Assembly (NCBI GenBank): GCA_902761735.1
Contig: CACWLL010000006.1
Location: forward strand, 1 to 64,000
From: an uncultured bacterium
Lineage (GTDB): Bacteria > Cyanobacteriota > Vampirovibrionia > Gastranaerophilales > Gastranaerophilaceae
Length of the DNA stretch: 64,000 nucleotides
Direction of reading: 5' to 3'
This document shows, piece after piece, positions 49,948 through 51,896 of the stretch. The notes beneath the pieces are model-generated. The model searched no databases and was not told where the DNA came from. It saw only the letters and a list, made by a program, of their open reading frames with translations. Position 1 is the stretch's first letter; each line of letters opens with the position of its first letter. Position numbers and translations under genes: made by a program.

Positions 49948-50952
49948 TTATAACTTAGATGCAACCATATAAGTTGTTTCAGCAAGTCTTGTTGAATAAC
50001 CCATTTCGTTATCATACCAAGAAATAATCTTAACTTGGTTTCCGCCCATTACACGAGTTAATAAAGCGTCAACTGTTGAAGATTGAGAAGTACCAACATA
50101 ATCTGATGATACTAACGGTTCTTCAGTATAGCAAAGAACGTGTCCGTCAGCACCTGCTTTTAATGCTGCATTAACTTCTTCTACGGTAACGTCTTTAGCA
50201 ACTTCAAATACAACGTCAACTAGAGAAACGTCAGGAGTAGGAACACGCATAGCGAAACCGTCCAATTTACCTTTCAATTGAGGTAAAACAAGAGCAACAG
50301 CTTTTGCAGCACCTGTTTTTGTAGGAACAATATTCAATGCGCCTGCTCTTGCACGACGAGGGTCTTTGTGGCCGGCGTCTAAGATTCTTTGGTCACCTGT
50401 GTAAGAGTGAACAGTTGTCATCAAACCTTTAACGATACCGAATTTTTCATCGATAACTTTAGCTACAGGAGCCAAGCAGTTTGTAGTACAAGATGCCATA
50501 GAAATTACATTGTGTTTAGCAGGATCATATTCTTTGTCGTTAACGCCAAGAACGATAGTCTTGTCTTCGTTAGTTGCAGGAGCAGAAATAATAACTTTCT
50601 TAGCGCCTGCATCAATGTGAGCATGAGCTTTAGTTGCATCAGTGAAGAAACCTGTAGATTCAACTACAACTTCAACACCCAAATCTTTCCAAGGAAGATT
50701 TGCAGGATCTTTTTCAGCAAAGAATTTGATTTTCTTACCGTTTACGATGATACCTTCATCATAAGCTTCAACGCTACCGTCAAATTTACCCATAACTGAG
50801 TCATATTTGAAGATTCTTGCAGCATCTTCCGGTTTCAAACCAGGGTCGTTGATTGCTACATAATTAATTTTGTCAAAAATACCTTCTCTGATAGCGGCAC
50901 GTAATGTATTTCTGCCGATTCTACCAAAGCCGTTAATAGCTACGTTTACCAT
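49948..50952 (-). CDS. gap: Glyceraldehyde-3-phosphate dehydrogenase
   Basis: The product has 334 residues. The NAD-binding motif INGFGRIGR opens it, and the catalytic Cys is in SMASCTTNCLAP. It is glycolytic GAPDH of the usual bacterial length. Codons are markedly uniform, consistent with high expression. AAGGAG lies 9 nt before the ATG. Upstream on the minus strand, TTGATT and TATAAA with a 17-nt spacer (near 50990-51030) form a plausible promoter. Confidence 0.97.
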   Translation of the reverse strand: MVNVAINGFGRIGRNTLRAAIREGIFDKINYVAINDPGLKPEDAARIFKYDSVMGKFDGSVEAYDEGIIVNGKKIKFFAEKDPANLPWKDLGVEVVVESTGFFTDATKAHAHIDAGAKKVIISAPATNEDKTIVLGVNDKEYDPAKHNVISMASCTTNCLAPVAKVIDEKFGIVKGLMTTVHSYTGDQRILDAGHKDPRRARAGALNIVPTKTGAAKAVALVLPQLKGKLDGFAMRVPTPDVSLVDVVFEVAKDVTVEEVNAALKAGADGHVLCYTEEPLVSSDYVGTSQSSTVDALLTRVMGGNQVKIISWYDNEMGYSTRLAETTYMVASKL

Positions 50953-51169
50953 AAGTTTTTACTCCTTCTTATTTTGTAAATCATACTTATACATGTCATT
51001 TATATCATCAACATAATTCTTAATCAAGTGGATTAGCCATGCCAATAGTTAAGAAAAAATTAAATTTTTGCGTAACGTTTTGTTACAAGGTTTAGTAAAA
51101 AATTAAAGAATAAGAAAAATTTGCCGATAACAAATATGTAATCAGATAAATAACAAGGAGTTATAGATA

Positions 51170-51325
51170 ATGTTAAAGAAGATTCAATCCCCATCGTCAA
51201 ATATTTGTGACAGTGTGGAATTCATATTAAGAGGAGCGAGAAAGCGCCGCTCTATGGCGATTCAATCCGCTCGGAGCATATCTTCCGAGTCAGGTGTAAA
51301 GACAACTTTTGCGGTTGTAAAATAG
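51170..51325 (+). CDS. Possible 51-residue basic, Ser-rich peptide
   Basis: An ATG at 51170 has AAGGAG 9 nt before it and 51 codons are open. The peptide starts MLKKIQSPSSN, has RGARKRRSMAIQSAR in the middle and ends TFAVVK. It contains the IQS motif twice, reflecting a direct DNA repeat GATTCAATCC. Arg codons CGC and CGG are used although they are rare in neighbours. The same DNA folds into several hairpins, so coding may be accidental to an RNA gene. No family is recognised. Confidence 0.4.
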   Translation: MLKKIQSPSSNICDSVEFILRGARKRRSMAIQSARSISSESGVKTTFAVVK

Positions 51326-51400
51326 GTACGCAAAAGGATATTAAGAAAAATGACCCTCTGGTGGTCGAATGAAACAATAAGAAAGAGAGCTAAGATAAAT

Positions 51401-51430
51401 AACCGGTTGAGACGTCAGCCGGTTTTTTGC
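51401..51430 (+). terminator. Terminator of the 51-kb transcript
   Basis: AACCGGTTGA (51401-51410) pairs with TCAGCCGGTT (51415-51424), 10 bp with one G-T pair and a 4-nt loop, followed by TTTT. Confidence 0.85.
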
Positions 51431-51496: not shown

Positions 51497-51673
51497 TTAC
51501 TCAACAACGATTGCTCCAACCGGGCAAGCATCAGCAGCTTCTTTAACTGCATCGATGTTATCAGCAACAGCAGATGCATCAACTACAGCTTTATCTTCAA
51601 TAGAAAATACTGCATCACAAATAGATTCGCATGCACCGCAAGCAATGCAATCATCACTAATAGTTACGCTCAT
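51497..51673 (-). CDS. [4Fe-4S] ferredoxin, single or 1.5-cluster type
   Basis: From ATG 51673 (AAGGAG 8 nt upstream) the product has 58 residues. One full ligand set is visible: CIACGACESIC plus a distal CP in ACPVGAI. The second half of a two-cluster clostridial ferredoxin is degenerate, because only the lone Cys before PVGAI remains. It is an electron carrier, possibly for pyruvate or GOGAT-linked redox reactions. This is inference. It is monocistronic. Confidence 0.85.
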   Translation of the reverse strand: MSVTISDDCIACGACESICDAVFSIEDKAVVDASAVADNIDAVKEAADACPVGAIVVE

Positions 51674-51896
51674 TTTAGTTCTCCTTTTTATAATTACAAT
51701 ACACACAGACTCTCGCCTGTAAAAAGATTATACAATAGAAAAACTAAAAACGCAATTAATTTAAATGGGTATTTATAATATCTGAATTGTTACATACTCT
51801 TGGTTAGTACACAGGCTTTTCTAAATTTTATCGCAGCAAAATATTTTTTTGTTGCGGTAATAAAAGATTACCAAAATTAACTTTAATAGTGTTATT

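Follow-up and report, generated by a model that had tools for sequence, protein, structure and literature searches.

The segment at positions 51170-51430 of the window (the whole 64,000-nucleotide stretch of DNA that was analysed) is, to judge by its conservation, mainly a gene for a basic protein of 51 amino acids that would be transcribed from a sigma-28-type promoter of its own. The window comes from a member of the Gastranaerophilales, an order of common, mostly uncultured cyanobacterial relatives found in animal guts, with aquatic members as well. Since FliA is common in the order, flagellin is often absent and no FlgM is recognizable, the gene seems to belong to the core of a sigma-28 regulon that has been retained after flagella were lost. 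We hold the reading of gene plus promoter as a whole with high confidence. A preliminary description of the segment had allowed for a small protein gene, an RNA gene or both; the protein gene stands, as does a conserved structured 3′ end, whereas an RNA gene with structure along the full length of the segment is not supported.

A conserved gene for a small basic protein

The segment is flanked by gap (49948-50952, reverse strand) and a ferredoxin gene (51497-51706, reverse strand), as had been described, and its GC content of 41%, compared with 34% for the window, agrees with the enrichment noticed earlier. On the forward strand, direct reading places a Shine-Dalgarno sequence, AAGGAG, at 51155-51160, which is 9 nt before an ATG at 51170. 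From here, a 51-codon frame runs to a TAG at 51325, so that this part of the preliminary description is also correct. GGAG precedes the ATG in most homologues as well. The gene (51170-51325, forward strand) encodes a 5.6-kDa protein, MLKKIQSPSSNICDSVEFILRGARKRRSMAIQSARSISSESGVKTTFAVVK, with a pI of 11.0 and one predicted helix at residues 12-41.

A DNA similarity search recovered the segment from every genome of the same genus and from many of the same family, and alignment of the homologues revealed that the conserved part is the reading frame. In this alignment, the length is exactly 51 amino acids in 79 of 81 homologues and 52 in the other two. Among same-genus relatives, dN/dS is approximately 0.05-0.19, with dS exceeding dN roughly 5- to 20-fold. 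A protein profile (A2) found matches in 337 of 383 Gastranaerophilales genomes, a non-random sample of draft assemblies, usually in a single copy and almost always 49-52 amino acids long. Many of the genomes that lack a profile match belong to one genus (g21), in which very divergent versions of the gene occur behind the same promoter. Because dN/dS is low, the length constant and the profile matches order-wide, the 51-codon frame is, on the evidence of its sequence evolution, a genuine protein-coding gene.

The family seems to be confined to this order. A broader profile (A3), run on sampled Cyanobacteria and on a small number of genomes from the same class but not the order, gave no credible match; the sole match outside the order contained internal stops and was rejected as chance. 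Most named records with the gene are labeled Gastranaerophilales or Melainabacteria. Records titled Brachyspira, Fusobacterium CAG:439 and Heliobacteriaceae (L073, L098 and L107) carry this order-specific gene too, and are probably Gastranaerophilales bins that were given the wrong title.

A sigma-28-type promoter that moves with the gene

The consensus sequence recognized by sigma-28, or FliA, is TAAAGTTT-N11-GCCGATAA. A close counterpart that the preliminary description overlooked, TAAAGAAT-N11-GCCGATAA, is located at 51104-51130, 40-66 nt upstream of the ATG. Its −35 element (TAAAGAAT, 51104-51111, forward strand) begins with TAAAG in all 81 homologous upstream regions, with TTT as the usual continuation, and its −10 element (GCCGATAA, 51123-51130, forward strand) is of the CCGAT(A/T) type in all 81, at 28-51 nt before the ATG. 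The two elements are separated by 11 nt, the canonical FliA spacing, and the majority bases over the 81 regions are TAAAGTTTT and CCGATA. Even the most divergent homologues, in other families, retain this promoter. The gene neighbours differ among relatives, the gene following rplU-rpmA in many, residing elsewhere in others and lying between gap and ferredoxin in the window. As the promoter is constant while these neighbours vary, it evidently moves with the gene, and a promoter of the FliA/sigma-28 consensus has been conserved with the gene wherever the latter is located. The assignment to sigma-28 is built on the match to the consensus, on its conservation and on the FliA that these genomes encode.

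Just downstream of the −10 element and around the putative transcription start is a further conserved stretch, ATATGTAATCAGA (51134-51146, forward strand), which contains the word TGTAA at a fixed distance. TGTAA follows the −10 element in 67 of the 81 homologues, its spacing from the CGA being identical in 64, and by direct reading the box recurs at other promoters of this kind in these genomes. A word resembling TTTGT(T/A)ACA (51080-51089 in the window) is present about 23 nt upstream of the −35 element in 54 of 81 homologues and is possibly the site of a regulator. At the other end, the terminator reported earlier is an intrinsic one (51401-51430, forward strand), made up of a 10-pair stem with a 4-nt loop at 51401-51424 and a T tail. 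With a promoter and a terminator of its own, the segment is in all likelihood a stand-alone transcription unit.

Structure at the 3′ end of the transcript

When the whole segment is folded and compared with shuffled sequences, it gives a z score of −2.35. This excess is located in the 3′ part (z −2.15), while the coding part alone folds in an ordinary manner (z −1.31, with 22 of 200 shuffles equally good). The successive stems described previously are present in the sequence. The main element is a hairpin at 51306-51336 (forward strand), in which an 8-bp stem, CUUUUGCG/CGCAAAAG (51306-51313/51329-51336), closes a 15-nt loop containing the stop codon. It includes the two 7-base words singled out in the preliminary description, TTTTGCG (51307-51313) and CGCAAAA (51329-51335), both of which are present. 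Their pairing had been taken as a potential pseudoknot; it is instead a nested hairpin that no other helix crosses in the minimum-energy and centroid folds, which come from programs that cannot predict crossing helices.

The position of this helix shifts among relatives, being formed by CUUUUGCG/CGCAAAAG in the window and by AGACAAC/GUUGUCU in the relative L062, and for this reason an arm-swap test was used rather than a covariance model. The last 33 nt of the frame were paired with the start of the 3′ untranslated region (UTR) within and between genomes for 58 representatives. Own pairings averaged −11.23 kcal/mol compared with −8.68 (sd 0.31) kcal/mol for permuted ones, and 0 of 2000 permutations were as good. 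No such effect was seen for three other parts of the frame that served as controls. The hairpin arms thus co-evolve across the stop codon. The preliminary description had made its reading depend on the conservation of frame or stems in relatives, and both the order-wide frame and the co-evolving hairpin turned out to be kept.

A second element, GAGAG (51385-51389, forward strand), precedes the terminator. It is found no more than 40 nt upstream of the terminator of this gene in 65 of 73 relatives, and of the 245 other terminators in those loci only 3 have it. GAGAG is limited to the family of the window and is missing from most homologues of other families. In one of these (f3; L169-L171, L173, L175 and L178), a different conserved 3′ UTR word, close to AGAT(C/T)TGGG(G/A)AA, takes its place before the terminator. 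Together, the hairpin and GAGAG are signs of selection on the mRNA end in addition to that on the protein.

Such features could also mean that the segment is mainly a regulatory RNA, its 3′ end being a sigma-28-dependent small RNA and the frame only its carrier. Small RNAs that depend on sigma-28 exist in E. coli, and both the co-evolving arms and the highly specific placing of GAGAG before the terminator would fit. Others are described for Campylobacter (PMC4626219). We nevertheless consider a primarily regulatory RNA quite unlikely: the frame is under strong selection throughout the order, GAGAG by contrast occurs in one family only, and the coding part folds ordinarily. The search of Rfam that had been suggested placed the segment in no known family, with no match at the gathering threshold and chance-level ones only at E values up to 10.

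The protein and its possible partners

The protein family is defined by a conserved core, LRGA(K/R)KRRxxA, and a nearly invariant C-terminal ..(V/I)K. In the window, these appear as RGARKRR and a nearly fixed ..VVK. AlphaFold2 predicts a single helix, at the residues given above, with loose ends and at moderate confidence (mean pLDDT 73.5). Scans of all members against Pfam, NCBIfam and PHROGs gave no match, and the family is absent from these three collections. Searches of the PDB returned chance-level matches by sequence and no match by fold, and no match to the protein was found in phage records. The KRR motif led to a first guess of RNA polymerase omega (RpoZ), which was rejected as there is no PF01192 match and an omega-like gene sits elsewhere (G000:C6:88637). 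This gene, a diverged rpoZ candidate, is located at G000:C6:88592-88846 (L031:1456-1710) in the window's own genome, G000, and scores 19.1 of 26 bits, under the Pfam cut-off. The 51-residue protein may act in regulation as a basic helix, by binding nucleic acid or RNA polymerase, a reading put forward tentatively, as possible rather than probable.

A ribosomal role is highly unlikely. According to this explanation, the basic helix would resemble part of uS7, or the protein would be a rescue or hibernation factor with a truncating stop hairpin like that of arfA. hhalign places residues 14-42 in register on residues 98-128 of E. coli uS7 with 34% identity, an insignificant alignment (probability 6.4%, E 0.33); uS7 came first of 549 E. 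coli frames tested and uS7m was the best PDB match, again with insignificant scores. The gene also lies downstream of rplU-rpmA in many relatives, and the hairpin does cover the stop codon. However, none of the scores is significant and the uS7 comparison was picked after the fact. In addition, the stem of only about 8 bp is short for RNase III, and none of the known rescue-factor motifs is seen.

FliA without flagella

The window's genome encodes a FliA-family sigma factor (TIGR02479, 237.8 bits against a cut-off of 189.6) and has no flagellin over the cut-off. Across the order, FliA passes its cut-off in 370 of 383 genomes and flagellin in 168 of 383, including 0 of 12 in the genus of the window. 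Flagella are ancestral in the order and have been lost repeatedly (PMC4040986), and motility has been predicted for some members (PMC5877343). This history, together with the promoter type, would suit a small component of flagella, motility or chemotaxis that happens to persist in species without flagella. We give little credence to such a role, as the gene is under strong selection in genera without flagellin and, in the loci inspected, does not commonly neighbour any flagellar gene. The persistence of the gene after the loss of flagella makes it most likely that the protein works for the sigma-28 programme itself or for a cell state under its control.

The promoter pattern was also sought at the flagellin genes of flagellated relatives, where it was found in 4 of 20 compared with 0.25 expected by chance; two further sites are located about 245 nt upstream of flagellin clusters. 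Most of the sampled flagellins have no sigma-28 motif within about 600 nt even though FliA is present (L211, L215-L223 and L225-L229), and the flagellins of these relatives may use another promoter. As a result, the case for linking the promoter with flagella is made by its consensus, by FliA being present and by a minority of flagellins.

In the window's genome, where only a pattern search was used to sample the sigma-28 regulon, there are 19 sites with the promoter pattern against 4 for the reversed pattern. Several are just upstream of genes, among them genes for large undescribed proteins, some of which are apparently exported. The same sigma-28-type promoter precedes genes at L037, L040, L042, L046, L049, L050, L053 and L054, whose products include a repeat-rich, apparently exported protein (L049) and proteins of 485, 459 and 94 amino acids, as well as two near-identical contig ends starting with MGMAASQAR. 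By their promoters, these genes seem to form part of a sigma-28 regulon that exists without flagella. In a relative (L033, G029:C24, at about 1973), the promoter and TGTAA box stand before a 343-amino-acid protein that starts with MGLSASQARYLQLTARKSDKEYQ, similar to the MGMAASQAR ends.

The genes for FlgM proteins are often under sigma-28 control. FlgM was over the cut-off in 0 of 383 order genomes, and the one weak match inspected was another protein in a mobile-looking region. It is therefore worth asking if the 51-residue protein supplies the feedback on FliA that is otherwise missing in this order, working like FlgM as an anti-sigma factor that is induced by FliA, binds it and restrains it. 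The near-universal FliA without FlgM, the sigma-28-type promoter and a small, mostly single-copy protein nearly as widespread as FliA all agree with this. We consider it unlikely, however, as no member of the family matches FlgM (PF04316), a pI of 11 suggests a nucleic-acid or acidic-surface partner instead, and a diverged FlgM may have escaped the profile.

A proposed role in a retained sigma-28 programme

Returning to the gene as a core member of a retained regulon, the following mechanism can be proposed. RNA polymerase bearing FliA would start near 51137 and produce a short monocistronic transcript of about 290 nt. The protein would be made while sigma-28 is active, fold as a basic helix and serve the sigma-28 programme as a small regulator, binding nucleic acid or RNA polymerase. 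The stop hairpin and GAGAG may tune mRNA decay or processing. Order members without flagella would retain the programme for another purpose. Extended to the order as a whole, FliA without detectable FlgM, in a sample where more than half of the genomes lack flagellin, might run a different programme, with the 51-residue basic protein as its near-universal core gene product, acting as a FliA partner or nucleic-acid regulator and tuned by the co-evolving stop hairpin. We hold this wider proposal at somewhat less than even confidence.

That so small a protein is nearly universal, under strong selection and placed behind a flagellar-type promoter suggests that the sigma-28 circuit has been kept for something else. 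One gene and one promoter sequence would provide a direct handle on what that purpose is, and the structured 3′ end with its stop-codon hairpin is a candidate for mRNA control that can be tested.

Comparison with known systems

Late flagellar promoters of sigma-28 (FliA/sigma-D) share the TAAAGTTT-N11-GCCGATAA consensus and spacing with the one described here, and a FliA-family factor is present in the genome. Unlike those, the promoter here belongs to a stand-alone gene in bacteria without flagellin and has TGTAA as an additional box at constant spacing. With FlgM, the anti-sigma-28 factor, the present protein shares its small size, a gene apparently under sigma-28 control and a possible partnership with FliA, but it has 51 amino acids, a pI of 11 and no match to the profile PF04316. 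CjNC1 and CjNC4 of Campylobacter (PMC4626219) also combine a sigma-28 promoter, a structured transcript and a terminator of their own; the present segment differs in that it encodes a conserved protein, to which most of the conservation belongs. Many Gastranaerophilales are now without flagella (PMC4040986), and for this situation a parallel is found in Chlamydia, a non-flagellated bacterium in which the sigma-28 regulon (hctB, tsp) includes the histone-like protein HctB (PMC10597470). In both cases, sigma-28 has been kept without flagella and a basic protein appears to be under its control, a likeness that concerns the control of the genes.
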